35,926 bases of DNA from Candidatus Eisenbacteria bacterium. Lineage in GTDB: Bacteria > Eisenbacteria > RBG-16-71-46 > CAIMUX01 > VGJL01. The DNA is taken from positions 1 through 35,926 of the forward strand of contig VGJL01000011.1 of NCBI GenBank assembly GCA_016867495.1, in the 5' to 3' direction. Below the pieces are notes generated by a model. That model saw nothing but the letters and a program-made list of their open reading frames with translations, was not told the origin of the DNA and searched no databases. Position numbers and translations under genes: made by a program. Of the stretch, positions 6,147-12,560 are shown in pieces (the stretch's first letter is position 1; every line of letters begins with the position of its first letter).

Positions 6147-8549
6147 ATGACGACGGGCGCCGGCGCGGTGGCAGGAAGACCAATCGAGTTCGCCCCACGG
6201 AGGGCGGTCCACATCCCGGTCAGCGAGGAGTTGAAGGCAGGGCGATCGCCGAGCGCGCCCCCCGCTCCCGAGCTGCTGGAGGCCCTGGGACGCTTCGATC
6301 TCCTCTATCGCGCCCTCTGCGGCGTGCTCTTCAACTTCGTGCCCACCTCGGGGCATCCCGGGGGGAGCATCTCCTCCGGCAGGATCGTCTCATCGCTTCT
6401 CTTCGCCGGAACCGAGTACGACTTCCGCAATCCGGAAGAGGCGGCCAACGACATCCTCGTCTATGCGGCCGGACACAAGGCGATGGGCCTCTATGCCATG
6501 TGGGCGCTGCGAAACGAGATCGTCCGCGTGGGCGCCCGCGATCTGCTCCCTCCCGAGGAGAAGTTCCAGCTCAGGCTGGAGGATCTGCTCGGTTTCCGGC
6601 GCAACCCGACGACGGAGACGCCGCTCTTCCGGGCGATGAAGGCGAAACCGCTCGATGGGCATCCCACGCCGCTGACGCCGGGCGTGAAGATCGCCACCGG
6701 GGCCTCCGGCGTCGGCGTCCCCGCCGGCCTCGGGCTTGCGCTCGCCGCTCTCGACGCCTACGGGCAAGACGATCCCCCCCGCGTGCATCTCATCGAGGGA
6801 GAAGGGGGCATGACGCCGGGACGCGTTGTGGAGGCGATGGCGACCGCGGCCACCGCGGGTTTGCACAACGCCTATCTCCACATCGACTGGAACCAGGCGA
6901 GCATCGACAGCAATCGAGTCTGCCGCGTCGGACAGGAGGCGGGGGACTACGTGCAGTGGAATCCGGTCGAGCTGGCCTACCTCCATGACTGGAACGTCCT
7001 CACGGTCGAGGACGGGCATGACTTCGCGCAGGTCCTCGCGGCCCAACAGATGGCCCGGACAAGGCGCAACGACCAGCCGACTGCGGTCGTCTACAAGACC
7101 GTCAAGGGATGGCGCTACGGGATCGAGGGGCGCACATCGCACGGGGCCGGCCACAAGTTCTGCTCGGATGAGTACTACGCCTGCCTCAAGGAGGCGGAGG
7201 AGGGTCTCGGGATCAGCTTCCCGCGCCACTCCGGGGCGAAGGACCCCGTCTCGGTGGAGGAGACCTACTGGGCGACGCTTCTCGCCTTCAGATCGTGGAT
7301 CGAGAGGGACGGGAGCACGGCCCGCCTCTTGGCGGAACAGATCCGCAGGAGCGCGGAAGCGCTCCGCCAGAGGGGACGCAGGCCCAGAGCGGCGGCGCCC
7401 GATCTTTCGCCGCTCTATGCCGACTCGATGCGGCCCGATGAGGTGCCGGAAGAACTGATACTCAAGCCCGGGGCCGAGACGACCCTCCGCGGCGCGCTCG
7501 GCGACGCCCTCGGCTACGTCAATCGCATGACCGGCGGCGGTGTGATCGCGGCCGCCGCGGATCTGCTCGGCTCCACGAGCGTCTCCAACGCGGCGAAGGG
7601 GTTCCCCCCGGGGTTCTTCCACTCGACGGGCAATCCCGATTCCAGGGTCGTCTCCGGCGGCGGGATCTGCGAGGACTGCATCGGCGCGTTTCTCGCGGGG
7701 CTATCGAGCTACGGCCGCCACATCGGCGCTGGATCGTCCTACGCGGCGTTCATCGCAGCGCTTCAGCACGTCCCCTCGCGGCTTCATGGGATCGGCCAGC
7801 AGGCCCGCCACGAGCTCACGGGCGACGCGTATCGGACCTTCCTCATCATCTGCGCGCACGCGGGGCTCAAGACCGGCGAGGACGGCCCGACGCACGCCGA
7901 TCCGCAGGCGCTTCAGCTGCTTCAGGAGAACTTCCCGCCGGGGGTGTGCATCACGCTGACCCCCTGGGAGCCTGCGGAGCTCTGGCCGCTCCTGATCGCG
8001 GGACTGAAGGCGCGCCCGGCGATCCTCGCCCCGTTCGTGACGCGGCCCAACGAGAAGGTGCCGGACCGCGCGGCTCTTGGGATCCCGCCCGCTTCCGATG
8101 CGACGCGCGGGATCTACGCCCTGCGCAAGGTCGACCCGGGCGTGGCGCCTTATCACGGGACGCTCGTCCTCCAGGAGAGCGGGGTCGCCTACGCCTTCGT
8201 GGACGAGGTCCTTCCGAGGATGGACAGGGACGGCCTGCGGATGAATGTCTACCTCGTTACGAGCGCCGAGCTCTTCGATGCCCTCCCCGAGGCGGAGAGG
8301 GCGAGGATCTACCCGGCCGAGCGGGCCCGCGAGGCGATGGGGATCACCGGCTTCACGATGCCCACGCTCTACCGCTGGATCCTCTCGGAGGAAGGCAGGC
8401 GCGCCAGCCTCCATGCCTTCTCTACGGGGAGATACCTGGGAAGCGGGCAGGCTCACAAGGTGCTCGAGGAAGCCCGTCTCGACGGCGCGTCGCAGTACGA
8501 GGCGATCCGGCGGTACGCAGATGGCTTCGCCCGTCGCGGCGGCGTCTAG
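6147..8549 (+). CDS. Divergent transketolase-like thiamine-diphosphate enzyme
   Basis: An 800-residue protein with the three-domain layout of transketolases. SGHPGGS (68-74) matches the family's N-terminal substrate and TPP site. The metal-diphosphate motif is GEG (218-220) followed by DWN (247-249), where the family normally has GDG and DYN. The middle domain keeps the glutamate that activates TPP (ICED in place of REH), and GEDGPTH is conserved. An N-terminal extension of about 45 residues and the overall length exceed a standard transketolase (about 660). It could be a true transketolase of the pentose phosphate pathway or a paralogue with another ketol donor. The next gene begins 9 bases after the stop, so co-transcription with the membrane cluster is likely. 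The ATG follows GGGAGGTCGAGG. Confidence 0.8.
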   Translation: MTTGAGAVAGRPIEFAPRRAVHIPVSEELKAGRSPSAPPAPELLEALGRFDLLYRALCGVLFNFVPTSGHPGGSISSGRIVSSLLFAGTEYDFRNPEEAANDILVYAAGHKAMGLYAMWALRNEIVRVGARDLLPPEEKFQLRLEDLLGFRRNPTTETPLFRAMKAKPLDGHPTPLTPGVKIATGASGVGVPAGLGLALAALDAYGQDDPPRVHLIEGEGGMTPGRVVEAMATAATAGLHNAYLHIDWNQASIDSNRVCRVGQEAGDYVQWNPVELAYLHDWNVLTVEDGHDFAQVLAAQQMARTRRNDQPTAVVYKTVKGWRYGIEGRTSHGAGHKFCSDEYYACLKEAEEGLGISFPRHSGAKDPVSVEETYWATLLAFRSWIERDGSTARLLAEQIRRSAEALRQRGRRPRAAAPDLSPLYADSMRPDEVPEELILKPGAETTLRGALGDALGYVNRMTGGGVIAAAADLLGSTSVSNAAKGFPPGFFHSTGNPDSRVVSGGGICEDCIGAFLAGLSSYGRHIGAGSSYAAFIAALQHVPSRLHGIGQQARHELTGDAYRTFLIICAHAGLKTGEDGPTHADPQALQLLQENFPPGVCITLTPWEPAELWPLLIAGLKARPAILAPFVTRPNEKVPDRAALGIPPASDATRGIYALRKVDPGVAPYHGTLVLQESGVAYAFVDEVLPRMDRDGLRMNVYLVTSAELFDALPEAERARIYPAERAREAMGITGFTMPTLYRWILSEEGRRASLHAFSTGRYLGSGQAHKVLEEARLDGASQYEAIRRYADGFARRGGV

Positions 8550-8558
8550 GAGCATCGC

Positions 8559-9023
8559 GTGAGCGGGCTCGACTTGAGGCAGGAGGCGGCGAGGGCCGGT
8601 AGGATCCACCTGATCATCTGGGCGGCCTTTCTCCTCGTGGTCGTGAGCTATCTCGTCATCCTCCTTCTGACCGCGCGGGAGCGGCCGGCGCGAGGGCTCG
8701 CCGAGGCCCCTCTCGCCACGGTGCGCATGATCTTCTACGCGCTCGGGGCGGGGATGCTCGTCGCCTCGGTCCTTCTCCGCTGTCTGCTGGATCAGAGGTC
8801 GTACACCTATGCCGACGAGGCCCTTCGGGGGTCTCTCCTCTCCTTGATCGTGGGGCTCGCCATGGCGGAGAGCGTGGCGATTCTCGGCGTGGTCCTGGCC
8901 TTTCTCGGAGGCGGATGGAAGGACGCAGTTCCCTTCCTCGTGGCGGGATTCGCGGGAGTCCTGCTGCAACGGCCCGATCCGGACAGGCTCGCCGAGCGGA
9001 TCCGGACGCTCCGGGTGAGGTGA
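8559..9023 (+). CDS. Small four-helix membrane protein, c-subunit-like
   Basis: A 154-residue integral membrane protein of no recognised family. Four hydrophobic helices lie at about 17-37, 56-76, 91-115 and 120-137. The third reads GLAMAESVAILGVVLAF, which resembles the C-terminal helix of rotary-ATPase c/K subunits, including a buried glutamate; this is likeness by eye, not a family assignment. The short C-terminus is charged (DPDRLAERIR). The GTG start lies 9 bases after the transketolase stop, with TAGGAG overlapping that stop as ribosome site. It is the first of five consecutive membrane-protein genes. Confidence 0.75.
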   Translation: MSGLDLRQEAARAGRIHLIIWAAFLLVVVSYLVILLLTARERPARGLAEAPLATVRMIFYALGAGMLVASVLLRCLLDQRSYTYADEALRGSLLSLIVGLAMAESVAILGVVLAFLGGGWKDAVPFLVAGFAGVLLQRPDPDRLAERIRTLRVR

Positions 9024-9101
9024 AAGCGCGAGCGCCATGCCGTCGCCTCTCGATCCGATCCGCAACCTTCAACCATTCACCGCTCGATGAGGGCTGAACG
9101 C

Positions 9102-10259
9102 ATGAGACGGGCATCCATCCTTCTTGCCCTGGCCGTGACCTGTCCCGTATCGCTGGCCGCGGGCCAACCTCCGCCCGAGACCCGGCCCGGGAAGTCGCCG
9201 CCGGCCGTGACCGACCTGCAGGCAGCCGACACGCGGTTCGACGGAGGAAGCAGCATCACCCTGCGCTGGCGGGGAGGTGAAGGCGCGGTCCGCTTCCGCA
9301 TCGAGCGAGCCGGGCCGGAGGGAGGCTTCGACAGCCTCGATGTCGCGGGCGCGGGGAGCAGCGTCTACGAGGATGGCGAGGCGACCGACGGCGTCGACTA
9401 TCGCTATCGTGTCATCTCCATCGGGGGGATGGGGGGCGAGACGGCGTCGGCCGAGACCGGGCCTGTGCGCAGCAGTCCCCAGTGGTTCAACGGCCACTAC
9501 ACGAGTGTCGCGATCGCTCTGCTCGTCTTCGGGGGGCTGATCCTCTGGTTCATCCGCAAGGCCCGGAAGGGCATCCATCTGTTCGTTCGCAAGATCGCGG
9601 GGCTCGAGGCGGTGGACGAGGCGATCGGGCGGGCGACCGAGATGGGCAGGCCCCTCCTCTACATCCCGGGGACCGGATACATCGAGTACATCAGCACGGT
9701 CGCTTCGCTGAACCTCCTGGGCGAGGTGGGCAAGAAGATCGCGGAGTACGGTACGCAGATCCGCGTTCCCGTCCGCGATCCGATCGTCTTCACCGTCGCC
9801 CGCGAGGTCGTCCGGGGTTCGTATGCCGCCGCCGGGCGACCCGACGCCTACGATCCCGAGAGCGTCCACTTCCTCGTCGAGAACGCGCTCGCCTATGCCG
9901 GCGCCGTGAGCGGGATCATCGTCCGCGAGAGGCCGGCCGCCAACTTCTTCATGGGCTTCTTCGGCGGCGAGTCGCTGATCCTCTCGGAGACGGGCGCGAC
10001 AACGGGCGCGATCCAGATCGCGGGGACCGATCAAACGACGCAGCTGCCCTTCTTCATCGTGGCCTGCGACTACACCCTGATCGGGGAGGAGCTCTACGCG
10101 GCCTCCGCCTACATCGCGCGCGAGCCTCTCATGCTGGGGGCCTTGAAGGGGCAGGACTACACGAAGTTCATCCTCGTGGCGCTGCTCGTCGTCGGAACGC
10201 TGGTGTCCCTCATCACCGGCTTCGACTTCAGGCAGGTGCTCGAGACCTCGGGGCACTAG
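9102..10259 (+). CDS. DUF6754-type protein: signal peptide, FN3-like domain, doubly anchored alpha/beta domain
   Basis: I recognise the long C-terminal region as the uncharacterised DUF6754 type, from memory of such proteins in candidate phyla. The order is a signal peptide (1-22, ending LAAG), a Pro-rich linker, a fibronectin-III-like domain (about 38-118, ITLRWRGGEG... YRYRVISIGG), a helix near 135-152, an alpha/beta domain of about 190 residues beginning GRPLLYIPGTGY, and a C-terminal helix near 358-377. With the first helix after the export signal, the alpha/beta domain should lie in the cytoplasm. I chose the ATG at 9102, which has AGGG eight bases upstream; an in-frame ATG at 9087 has no ribosome site. 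The next gene starts 9 bases downstream. Confidence 0.8.
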   Translation: MRRASILLALAVTCPVSLAAGQPPPETRPGKSPPAVTDLQAADTRFDGGSSITLRWRGGEGAVRFRIERAGPEGGFDSLDVAGAGSSVYEDGEATDGVDYRYRVISIGGMGGETASAETGPVRSSPQWFNGHYTSVAIALLVFGGLILWFIRKARKGIHLFVRKIAGLEAVDEAIGRATEMGRPLLYIPGTGYIEYISTVASLNLLGEVGKKIAEYGTQIRVPVRDPIVFTVAREVVRGSYAAAGRPDAYDPESVHFLVENALAYAGAVSGIIVRERPAANFFMGFFGGESLILSETGATTGAIQIAGTDQTTQLPFFIVACDYTLIGEELYAASAYIAREPLMLGALKGQDYTKFILVALLVVGTLVSLITGFDFRQVLETSGH

Positions 10260-10268
10260 GAGGAGAAG

Positions 10269-10928
10269 ATGCGCGACAAGCTCCCGCTCGGTCTGCTGAT
10301 CCTGATGGGGATTCTGGGGGTGACCGCGAACTTCCTTCCCCATCCGATCGCGGAGGGACTGAACGACTACCTGCGCAACACGCTGCTCAGGATCGTCGGC
10401 TCCTTCGCCCTCATCCTGGGTCTCGGGAACCTGATGCTCCACCACTACAACCGGATCAAGCGCAAGGCGGCCCACTGGCGGCAGTCGTACACGACGATCG
10501 TCTCCTTTTTCGTGGTCGCGGCGATCGGCGTGCTGGGCGGAGCCAGGGGCGAGGGGCCGATGCCGACGAAGATCCTCGGATTCCCCTTCGACACGACGAC
10601 GATCTACAACAAGCTTCTGATCCCCCTGGGCGCTACGCTCTTCGCGCTCCTGGCCTTCTACATGGCCTCGGCCGCCTATCGCTCGTTCCGGGCCAAGAGC
10701 ACGATGGCGGTCCTCCTGCTCGGATCGGCCTTCATCGTGATGCTCGGGCAGGTCCCCATCGGGGAGCTGATCAGCCCCTACCTGCCCAAACTGAGCAGCT
10801 GGATGATGGCGGTGCCGAACACGGCCTCGAAACGCGGGATCGACATCGGCGTCACGCTGGGCGCGACGGCGACCCTCCTCAAGATCCTGACCGGCGTTGA
10901 GCGCAGCTGGATGGGGGCGTCGAAATGA
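10269..10928 (+). CDS. Six-helix membrane protein of the DUF6754 cluster
   Basis: A 219-residue polytopic membrane protein with no recognised domain. Hydrophobic segments lie at about 5-23, 39-60, 74-92, 115-136, 143-161 and 190-209. A basic loop (NRIKRKAAHWRQ) sits between the second and third, probably on the cytoplasmic side. AYRSFRAKS and VMLGQVPIG follow the fourth and fifth helices and are the segments I would expect to be most conserved. The start follows TAGGAGGAGAAG, and the stop overlaps the next ATG as ATGA. The absence of catalytic-looking motifs and its place between two doubly anchored proteins suggest a structural or channel subunit; that is inference. Confidence 0.78.
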   Translation: MRDKLPLGLLILMGILGVTANFLPHPIAEGLNDYLRNTLLRIVGSFALILGLGNLMLHHYNRIKRKAAHWRQSYTTIVSFFVVAAIGVLGGARGEGPMPTKILGFPFDTTTIYNKLLIPLGATLFALLAFYMASAAYRSFRAKSTMAVLLLGSAFIVMLGQVPIGELISPYLPKLSSWMMAVPNTASKRGIDIGVTLGATATLLKILTGVERSWMGASK

Positions 10929-11791
10929 ACCTGGAACGCCTGATGCGGATCGACCGCAGGATCATCTTCCTCTTCACGGCGGCGGTGATCATCCTCCCGC
11001 TCCTGTTCCCGTTTCAGATGCCGATGGGGGTGCAGAAGCCGACGCAGAGATTCTTCGACACGGTGCAGGCGATCGACCCCGAGAGGCAATGCATCCTGAT
11101 CGCGACCGACTATCTGCCGCAGACGGAGGCCGAGAACCATCCGATGACGATCGCGCTGCTGCGCCACGGGCTGGCGGCCAAGATCCCCGTTCTGATGGCG
11201 GCGATGTACATCGAGGGGGCCGGCCTGACCCTCGATGCCATGAATCGCGTGACCGATGAGTTCAACGCGCGCGCCAAGACGTCCGCCGACAGCGTCGTCT
11301 ACGGCCGCGACATCGTCTTCCTCGGATGGCAGCCGCCGCCGATCGTGCCGATCCTGGGGATGGGGCGCAGCATCGCGGCGGTCTATCCGACCGACTACTT
11401 CGGCAACAGGATCGACAGCCTGCGGGTCATGCGCAACGTCCGGAACTACGACGACATCGGAATCGTCTGCTCGATCTCCGCCGGGACGATGCCCCTCTCC
11501 TTCGTCCAGTACGCGCAGTCGAAGTACGGTGTGAAGGTCGGGGGGGGCGTCACGGCGGTGAGCGCGCCCGACTACTATCCCTACTTCGAGACCGGCCAGT
11601 TCTCGGGCCTGCTCGGCGGGATGAAGGGGGCGGCGGAGTACGAGCACCTCGTCGAGAAGACATTCCACCTCGGTGGCCGGATGAGGGCGACGGAGGGGAT
11701 GGGGGCGCAATCGACGGCCCACATCCTGATCATCGTCTTCGTCGTGATCGGCAACGTGGCCTACTTCGCCGGGAGGAGGAAGCGCTCATGA
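10925..11791 (+). CDS. Doubly anchored alpha/beta protein of the DUF6754 cluster
   Basis: A 288-residue protein of no recognised family: one helix at about 13-33, a soluble domain of about 230 residues, and a closing helix at about 265-283 followed by a basic RRKRS tail. The soluble part opens with a strand-helix-strand pattern (CILIATDYL, then KIPVLMAAMY) and ends with LLGGMKGAAEYE before the last helix. The DUF6754 protein has a comparable MLGALKGQDY in the same place relative to its own last helix, so the two may be distant relatives. It overlaps its upstream and downstream neighbours by 4 bases each, which implies translation in step. The function is unknown. Confidence 0.78.
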   Translation: MNLERLMRIDRRIIFLFTAAVIILPLLFPFQMPMGVQKPTQRFFDTVQAIDPERQCILIATDYLPQTEAENHPMTIALLRHGLAAKIPVLMAAMYIEGAGLTLDAMNRVTDEFNARAKTSADSVVYGRDIVFLGWQPPPIVPILGMGRSIAAVYPTDYFGNRIDSLRVMRNVRNYDDIGIVCSISAGTMPLSFVQYAQSKYGVKVGGGVTAVSAPDYYPYFETGQFSGLLGGMKGAAEYEHLVEKTFHLGGRMRATEGMGAQSTAHILIIVFVVIGNVAYFAGRRKRS

Positions 11792-12477
11792 ACATCACCC
11801 CCGAGGTCATCTGGATCTGGATCGGGGCCTTCATGACCCTTTCCATCTTCTCGTTCCTCTACAGGGACAACCCGTTCTATCGATTCGCCGAGCACCTCTT
11901 CGTGGGCGCTTCCAACGGATGGACGGTCGGCTTCTACTGGCATCTCGTGCTGAAGCCGATTCTCTTCAGGCCGCTGGGCGAGGCGTTCCGCACGGCCTTC
12001 ACGAACGGCCTCTCATGGAGCCACTTCAACCCCGCCGCGCCGGCGAACTTCATGCTGATCGTCCCCTTCGCGATCGGGATGCTCTACTTCATGCGCTTCG
12101 TGCCGCGGGCGAGCTGGCTGGTCCGCTTCCCGATAGGGATCTTCATGGGCTACTACACCGGCCTCGCGATTCCGGTCGCCTTCACGGGGGCCCTCTTCCC
12201 GCAGCTGAAGGGAACGATCGTGACGCGCGGGAGCTTCGCGGATCCGATCGCCGGGCTCTGGGCGGTGCTCGTCCTGATCGGAGTCCTGGGGACCCTGATC
12301 TACTTCTTCTTCTCCAAGGAGCAGAAGGGGATCTTCAAGATCGGGGCGAAGACGGGGATCGTCTACATCATGCTCGGCTTCGGCGCGTCCTTCGGTTTCA
12401 CCGTCATGGCGCGCGTGTCGCTGGCGCTCGGCCGCTTCGTCTTCTTGCTGAGGGACTGGCTGGGAGTGATCTCGTAG
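11788..12477 (+). CDS. Polytopic membrane protein closing the DUF6754 cluster
   Basis: A 229-residue membrane protein with six or seven hydrophobic segments and no family I can name. The N-terminal part, SFLYRDNPFYRFAEHLFVG, is polar and aromatic within an otherwise hydrophobic stretch and looks like a functional loop. Further helices lie at about 88-105, 112-135, 151-170 and 185-220. The start is the ATG at 11788 in the ATGA overlap, with GGGAGGAGGA directly upstream; the frame is open further upstream, but only inside the preceding gene. It ends 25 bases before a strong terminator, so it closes the operon. Confidence 0.78.
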   Translation: MNITPEVIWIWIGAFMTLSIFSFLYRDNPFYRFAEHLFVGASNGWTVGFYWHLVLKPILFRPLGEAFRTAFTNGLSWSHFNPAAPANFMLIVPFAIGMLYFMRFVPRASWLVRFPIGIFMGYYTGLAIPVAFTGALFPQLKGTIVTRGSFADPIAGLWAVLVLIGVLGTLIYFFFSKEQKGIFKIGAKTGIVYIMLGFGASFGFTVMARVSLALGRFVFLLRDWLGVIS

Positions 12478-12502
12478 GGGCGGGCCGCGGTTCGCCGAGA
12501 AG

Positions 12503-12530
12503 CCCCGGCCCCGCGGGCCGGGGTTTTCTC
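12503..12530 (+). terminator. Rho-independent terminator after the membrane cluster
   Basis: A perfect 9-bp stem, CCCCGGCCC with GGGCCGGGG, around a CGC loop and followed by TTTTCTC. It separates the DUF6754 cluster from the DNA-damage gene group. Confidence 0.88.
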
Positions 12531-12560
12531 ATACGGGCGGGGACGGTACGATTCCCCTGC

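Follow-up and report, generated by a model that had tools for sequence, protein, structure and literature searches.

A probable undescribed inner-membrane complex, inherited together with an ATPase and an adaptor across at least 12 bacterial phyla

Background

Do five consecutive genes for membrane proteins, only one of which matches a named protein family, encode a single complex and, if so, what might that complex do? The genes lie in a stretch of 35,926 nucleotides (the window) from a Candidatus Eisenbacteria bacterium (assembly GCA_016867495.1, contig VGJL01000011.1), and an initial annotation, made from the sequence without database searches, had taken them for the five subunits of one integral membrane complex. 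The answer reached here is that four of them, g2 to g5, probably belong with a GlmL/MutL-type ATPase (here MutL) and an adaptor, a barrel-sandwich protein (BSH), to an undescribed inner-membrane complex that is inherited together across at least 12 bacterial phyla, which would make it a whole unrecognised cell machine. That a multi-protein system of g2-g5, the ATPase and BSH exists is held with high confidence. The features concerned, with the evidence for each, are the following.

8559 to 9023, forward strand: g1, small hydrophobic protein of 154 amino acids (open reading frame with a GTG start)
9087 to 10259, forward strand: g2, 390 amino acids (PF20539, E=7.8e-109; AlphaFold2; hydropathy and charge)
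10269 to 10928, forward strand: g3, polytopic membrane protein of 219 amino acids (hydropathy; 84 aligned relatives)
10925 to 11791, forward strand: g4, alpha/beta domain between two transmembrane segments, 288 amino acids (AlphaFold2; invariant residues; co-occurrence with g2)
11788 to 12477, forward strand: g5, polytopic membrane protein of 229 amino acids (hydropathy; 80 aligned relatives)
12500 to 12531 (approximately 12501 to 12530), forward strand: hairpin resembling an intrinsic terminator, after g5 (RNA fold energy)

Conservation and joint inheritance of g2-g5

Of 47 genomes examined from the host phylum, 45 carry DUF6754, the domain of g2, at 1-7 copies each, whereas 14 control genomes have none. 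Scanning GTDB genomes gave 80 loci, with more than 500 relatives in all, from Eisenbacteria, WOR-3/Stahlbacteria, TA06, Edwardsbacteria, Latescibacterota, Zixibacteria, Cloacimonadota, Poribacteria, Fermentibacteria, CSSED10-310, Hyd24-12 and Scalindua (Planctomycetota), among others. The order g2-g3-g4-g5 is fixed in Eisenbacteria, WOR-3, Zixibacteria, Cloacimonadota, Fermentibacteria, Poribacteria, Latescibacterota and Planctomycetota, so that conserved synteny, which had been set beforehand as a check, was borne out. Every sufficiently long contig carries the four genes in this order on one strand, often as two or three tandem copies (64 single, 9 double and 7 triple arrays among the complete patterns); g3 directly follows g2 throughout and g5 closes every intact module. 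The sole deviating order string (locus L022) is a start-codon artefact caused by an over-extended upstream start of g5, and an apparent fusion of g3 and g4 (L084:5610-6989) was rejected, the junction being a frameshift or an assembly error.

The first gene of the run does not share this history. No homologue of g1 was detected by tblastn in the ~135 related loci collected or in five paralogous copies in the host, and because of this g1 was rejected as a fifth subunit and the unit first proposed is reduced to the four genes g2-g5. The similarity of g1 to ATP-synt_C and ThrE is sub-threshold only, e.g. as subunit c of an F-ATPase it scores 17.9 bits against PF00137, below the cut-off of 24.

Coevolution was examined in 114 modules by shuffling partners only between paralogues from one locus or one genome, a procedure that preserves species history. 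Between genes, the pairwise-distance matrices show correlations of 0.72-0.84, and for none of the six gene pairs did any of 300 within-genome paralogue shuffles reach the observed correlation; within a copy, the four genes coevolve with one another and not with their paralogues. In the tandem arrays of Zixibacteria the first, second and third modules fall into separate, well-supported and ancient clades. Together with the shuffles these position-specific clades show that the modules are ancient and distinct from one another and that their order has been kept.

Co-occurrence was assessed in 292 Planctomycetota, a minority of which have the system. g2 was present in 88 of these, and g4 in those 88 and no others (Fisher p 5e-77). 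Of the 83 genomes with BSH, 81 also have g2 (p 5e-61), and of the 85 with the MutL subfamily, 83 do (p 5e-64); phylogenetic non-independence is ignored in all three values. BSH or MutL occurred without DUF6754 in two Planctomycetota genomes only, five DUF6754 genomes that are without both partners may be incomplete assemblies, and three DUF6754-negative genomes were also without g5. Among 30 named DUF6754 genomes BSH was found in 27 and MutL in 28.

The converse expectation, that the genes would be scattered in other genomes, does not describe the general case, and it holds in part for some planctomycetes that split the operon while keeping all the parts tested. In three such loci (L127, L129 and L135) BSH-g2(-g3) stay joined and g4-g5 occupy another part of the genome, in some cases also apart from MutL; the split-operon genomes G298, G318, G098, G168, G197 and G243 all keep g4 and g5 at other sites. 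Retention after dispersal is weightier evidence of joint function than operon structure by itself. It is very likely, from cross-phylum synteny, the co-occurrence of g2 with g4 and coevolution against paralogue shuffles, that g2-g5 make up one membrane complex, and to this extent the single complex of the initial annotation stands, with g1 outside it.

The ATPase and barrel-sandwich partners

Clustering of neighbouring genes revealed two more genes, which in 15 loci representing six lineages or more lie close to g2 or immediately upstream of it. One encodes the ATPase, a protein of ~600 amino acids that matches PF13941 (MutL) at 420.5 bits over positions 1-450 of 450 (L101), and the other BSH, of ~375 amino acids, with weak similarity to RnfC_N and biotin/lipoyl barrel-sandwich domains. 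The pair is often preceded by a protein of ~125 amino acids, here called small. The operon small-MutL-BSH-g2-g3-g4-g5 is found complete in many planctomycetes, in relatives from the host phylum (L107, L108) and in Fermentibacteria (L115). It is strongly supported that the module has near-obligate partners, namely one GlmL/MutL-type ASKHA ATPase and one BSH protein, usually with the ~125 amino acid protein.

The host itself keeps small-MutL-BSH on contig C155, apart from all of its modules and outside the view of the initial annotation, which had recognised the membrane genes and had not seen these cytoplasmic partners. There the order (L104:1285-6098) is gcvPB, a protein of 163 amino acids with two transmembrane segments, small, the GlmL-type ATPase and BSH, with no adjoining DUF6754 genes. 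The host genome (G000, 3.35 Mb in 373 contigs) has six copies of DUF6754, most of them in g2-g3-g4-g5 runs split by contig ends (C11, C85, C43, C151+C69, C110 and C189+C103, the joins C151+C69 and C189+C103 being presumed). Identity of these paralogues to the window copy is 47-54% in the DUF6754 domain, 32-39% in g4 and 37-43% in g5. That a single ATPase-BSH pair serves several paralogous modules, six in the host, is likewise strongly supported.

Across phyla, members of the ATPase subfamily share 61-71% identity with the host copy, and the ASKHA phosphate and adenosine motifs TDCGSTTTK, VDIGGATTD and GSGG-LSHAPRR are invariant within the subfamily. The closest named proteins are GlmL and the ornithine-degradation protein Or-4. 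Taken model by model the subfamily falls below every GlmL cut-off of NCBIfam, at 155-227 bits against 475 (GlmL), 600 (Or-4) and 204 (glmL_fam), the corresponding scores of the host protein being 206, 195 and 156 bits. The partner forms a distinct subfamily and is probably an active ATPase.

In a second family of paralogues MutL and BSH-like domains share one open reading frame of 700-1,070 amino acids (L060, L145-L154), a natural fusion consistent with the two acting as a unit. Four examples, of ~900-1,070 amino acids, are:

L060:17474-20236, MutL-BSH fusion
L145:7803-10682, MutL-BSH fusion
L146:8010-10799, MutL-BSH fusion
L148:3923-6898, MutL-BSH fusion

One fusion exceeds the NQRA_N cut-off, while standalone BSH proteins stay below the cut-offs. 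No recurrent neighbour of the fusions was found, and their context was dropped as a clue to function.

Two further observations concern neighbours of these genes. A short membrane protein of 115-210 amino acids is encoded directly before small in seven loci (L065, L104, L107, L108, L116, L117 and L144), with distant forms in L120 and L133, and is a possible eighth component. In the host copy on C85 (L009), whose g2 is short and without the N-terminal beta region, a gene for an OmpA-like glycine-zipper lipoprotein (L009:8342-9013) lies 15 nt upstream of g2; the arrangement did not recur among the other loci and, as a single occurrence, the gene was rejected as a part of the system.

Topology and predicted structure

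g2 begins with a signal peptide and a variable, beta-rich periplasmic N-terminal part, followed by a transmembrane segment (139-157), the DUF6754 domain (~160-360) and a second transmembrane segment (361-379), with 36 invariant columns in 109 relatives. AlphaFold2 models built from 109 relatives of g2 and 92 of g4 reached a predicted local distance difference test score (pLDDT) above 88 over residues ~140-380 of g2, i.e. the DUF6754 domain, and a mean pLDDT of 95.5 with a predicted TM-score of 0.91 for g4. An FN3 domain had been assigned to g2, and this could not be upheld: there is no fn3 match in Pfam and the strands modelled at residues 44-109 are of low confidence. The label is plausible for the beta-rich N-terminal region.

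Both the DUF6754 and the g4 domains are modelled as Rossmann-like alpha/beta folds. Foldseek returned generic Rossmann-like matches only, with low TM-scores (best E 7e-4 and 3e-3 for the two models), and a profile sequence search of the PDB found nothing for g2, g3 and g5 and chance-level matches for g4. Profile comparison rejected g2/g4 as a homologous pair of domains and g3/g5 as a homologous pair of proteins. By the positive-inside rule the DUF6754 domain should be cytoplasmic and the g4 domain periplasmic, and the two paired soluble domains envisaged at first give way to non-homologous domains predicted on opposite faces of the membrane.

Hydropathy and charge across 84 aligned relatives predict six transmembrane segments in g3 with both termini inside. 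g5 has at least five by hydropathy and a C-terminal motif, GFGASFGYTVMARxSLLxGR. The second transmembrane segment of g4 contains an invariant His266 and Asn277.

Six Cloacimonadota loci (L054, L059, L062, L083, L095 and L099) have g2 reading frames with N-terminal extensions of ~700 amino acids; the one extension scanned, that of L083, had no Pfam match. A long reading frame carrying g4 (L076:4075-6009, 644 amino acids) includes a HEAT-repeat region, which suggests an extracytoplasmic protein-binding extension.

Frames and boundaries in the window

The five frames lie where they had first been placed, and the ATGA overlaps that had been described among the last three genes are seen at g3/g4 and g4/g5; gaps of 63 nt and 9 nt separate g1 from g2 and g2 from g3. 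The assignment of g2 to DUF6754 is confirmed by 363.2 bits against a PF20539 cut-off of 27, over positions 3-253 of 257. No match above cut-off in Pfam or NCBIfam was found for g1, g3, g4 or g5, and g2 matches a DUF; the outcome that would have counted against a single complex, an unrelated known family for each gene, was not what was found. At the strong terminator reported for the end of the run, the GC-rich hairpin 3' of g5 folds at -34.7 kcal/mol (z -3.0), but its T-run is short and for this reason a scan with a consensus terminator pattern does not list it downstream of g5. The neighbouring transketolase gene (6147-8549 of the window) was rejected as a member, its module-side homologues in Fermentibacteria being split enzymes with 25-31% identity.

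Proposed mechanism and alternatives

In the mechanism proposed here the ATPase-BSH pair would dock on the cytoplasmic DUF6754 domains, the parts best conserved between paralogues, and an ATP-driven conformational change would be relayed through g3 and g5 to the periplasmic g4 domain and the N-terminal part of g2. Module-specific cargo or envelope partners would be handled by the divergent g4 domain and the variable g2 N-terminus. A shared energiser would in this way drive exchangeable modules. Given such docking, relay and module-specific periplasmic parts, ATP-driven transport, export or envelope handling is the likeliest role for g2-g5 as the membrane module of an inner-membrane machine, a reading to which even confidence is given. 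A transport step alone is put forward only tentatively. Similarly tentative is the proposal that the system represents a new class of ATP-driven machine, in which a barrel-sandwich adaptor would couple a GlmL-type ASKHA ATPase to interchangeable four-subunit modules, with several ancient module types per cell, to move or process cargo across the inner membrane in at least 12 phyla.

Several observations weigh against this reading. The transmembrane cores of g3 and g5 have no strongly conserved ionisable residue and no likeness to a known transporter (Lys205 of g3 is 69% conserved and Arg103 of g5 lies at the edge of a transmembrane segment), the operon is split in part of the Planctomycetota, the BSH gene of WOR-3 does not adjoin MutL, and relatives of GlmL elsewhere are thought to serve B12 mutases and not transport.

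The genomic context of the operon raises the alternative of a membrane-anchored accessory of glycine or one-carbon metabolism that assembles, activates or regulates glycine cleavage or another lipoyl-dependent enzyme. Several lineages (L107, L108, L115, L116, L117, L065 and L101) have the operon next to or between genes for glycine cleavage and lipoate ligase, with gcvT-gcvH-gcvPA-gcvPB and lplA enclosing it wholly or in part, and the context is partial in L066, L094, L112 and L073, the last being a WOR-3 genome in which gcvH-gcvPA follow g5 and MutL is absent from that spot. Dihydrolipoyl dehydrogenase-like genes occur near two planctomycete copies, and the weak likeness of BSH to biotin/lipoyl and RnfC/NqrA barrel-sandwich domains points the same way. 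However, most loci of Planctomycetota, Zixibacteria, Cloacimonadota and Poribacteria have no gcv gene nearby and their flanks are variable, glycine cleavage is near universal and runs without the system in most bacteria, and four membrane families in two or three tandem modules are hard to reconcile with a soluble pathway. This alternative, the chief rival to the mechanism proposed, is considered unlikely, and no more or less so than a structural or sensory complex of the envelope (a scaffold, a mechanosensor or a hub for signalling) that transports nothing and uses the ATPase as its switch. The variable extracytoplasmic extensions of g2, the HEAT repeats of the one g4 reading frame, the OmpA-like gene directly upstream of one host g2 and the absence of conserved transporter-like transmembrane charges would all suit such a complex, but the OmpA link is not recurrent, and the near invariance of both the ATPase and BSH points to an active catalytic cycle.

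Less probable again is reactivation or cofactor handling of the GlmL kind, in which the ASKHA ATPase would repair or load a cofactor enzyme and the membrane module import the cofactor. Although the full-length PF13941 match of 420 bits and the kinship to GlmL and Or-4 would fit, the subfamily's scores fall short of the GlmL, Or-4 and glmL_fam cut-offs as given above, and no B12-dependent mutase gene adjoins the ATPase operon in the neighbour clusters or Pfam counts (flanks of ~10 kb). That there is no complex, merely unrelated co-transcribed membrane genes brought together by chance or shared regulation, is very improbable in view of an order fixed over many phyla, the perfect co-occurrence of g2 and g4, the persistence of g4 and g5 where the operon has broken up and the coevolution of the four genes within each module. 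A known anti-phage defence system was rejected, PADLOC models giving zero matches for g1-g5, MutL, BSH and the small protein.

Undescribed multi-subunit inner-membrane machines spanning many phyla are now few. For the g2-g5 system the parts list can be given as at least six proteins, including an ATPase that appears active. About 30% of the Planctomycetota sampled carry the system, among them closed single-contig genomes of the culture-derived kind, which puts knock-outs and pull-downs within reach and opens a nameless DUF to direct testing.

Comparison with known systems

Of the four subunits, g3, g4 and g5 fall in no described family and g2 falls in a DUF, while the partner ATPase forms a new branch within a known fold family. 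g2 clearly belongs to PF20539, which covers its cytoplasmic domain only; the family description gives no function and omits the fixed partners g3-g5, BSH and the MutL subfamily. No paper on DUF6754 or PF13941 was found in the open literature searched, and the main text of the P. limnophila essential-gene paper (PMC10632474) is silent on these genes. As far as Pfam, NCBIfam, PADLOC, the PDB and the open literature were searched, no known system combines these parts.

The partner ATPase matches GlmL/MutL (PF13941; TIGR01319, NF040745 and NF040744 in NCBIfam) over its full length with intact ASKHA motifs, but differs in its size of ~600 amino acids, its C-terminal extension and its association, which is with a membrane module and not with a B12 mutase. 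ASKHA ATPases (Hsp70, actin, acyl-CoA dehydratase activators) are not known to power a multi-subunit membrane machine. BSH is weakly similar to the N-terminal barrel-sandwich of NqrA and RnfC (PF05896, PF13375), whereas its C-terminal half is unrelated, and in contrast to Na+-NQR and RNF its partners include no relatives of NqrB-F or RnfA/B/D/E/G (g2-g5 against Pfam, NCBIfam and the PDB).

The nearest parallel is one of organisation. The g2-g5 system may work somewhat like the group II energy-coupling factor (ECF) transporters, to which it is unrelated, since in both one cytoplasmic energiser would be common to several scattered membrane modules. Pfam places no ABC ATPase domain in g2-g5, MutL or BSH, and there is no similarity to EcfT or S-components; in contrast to ECF transporters the modules here consist of four subunits with large soluble domains.

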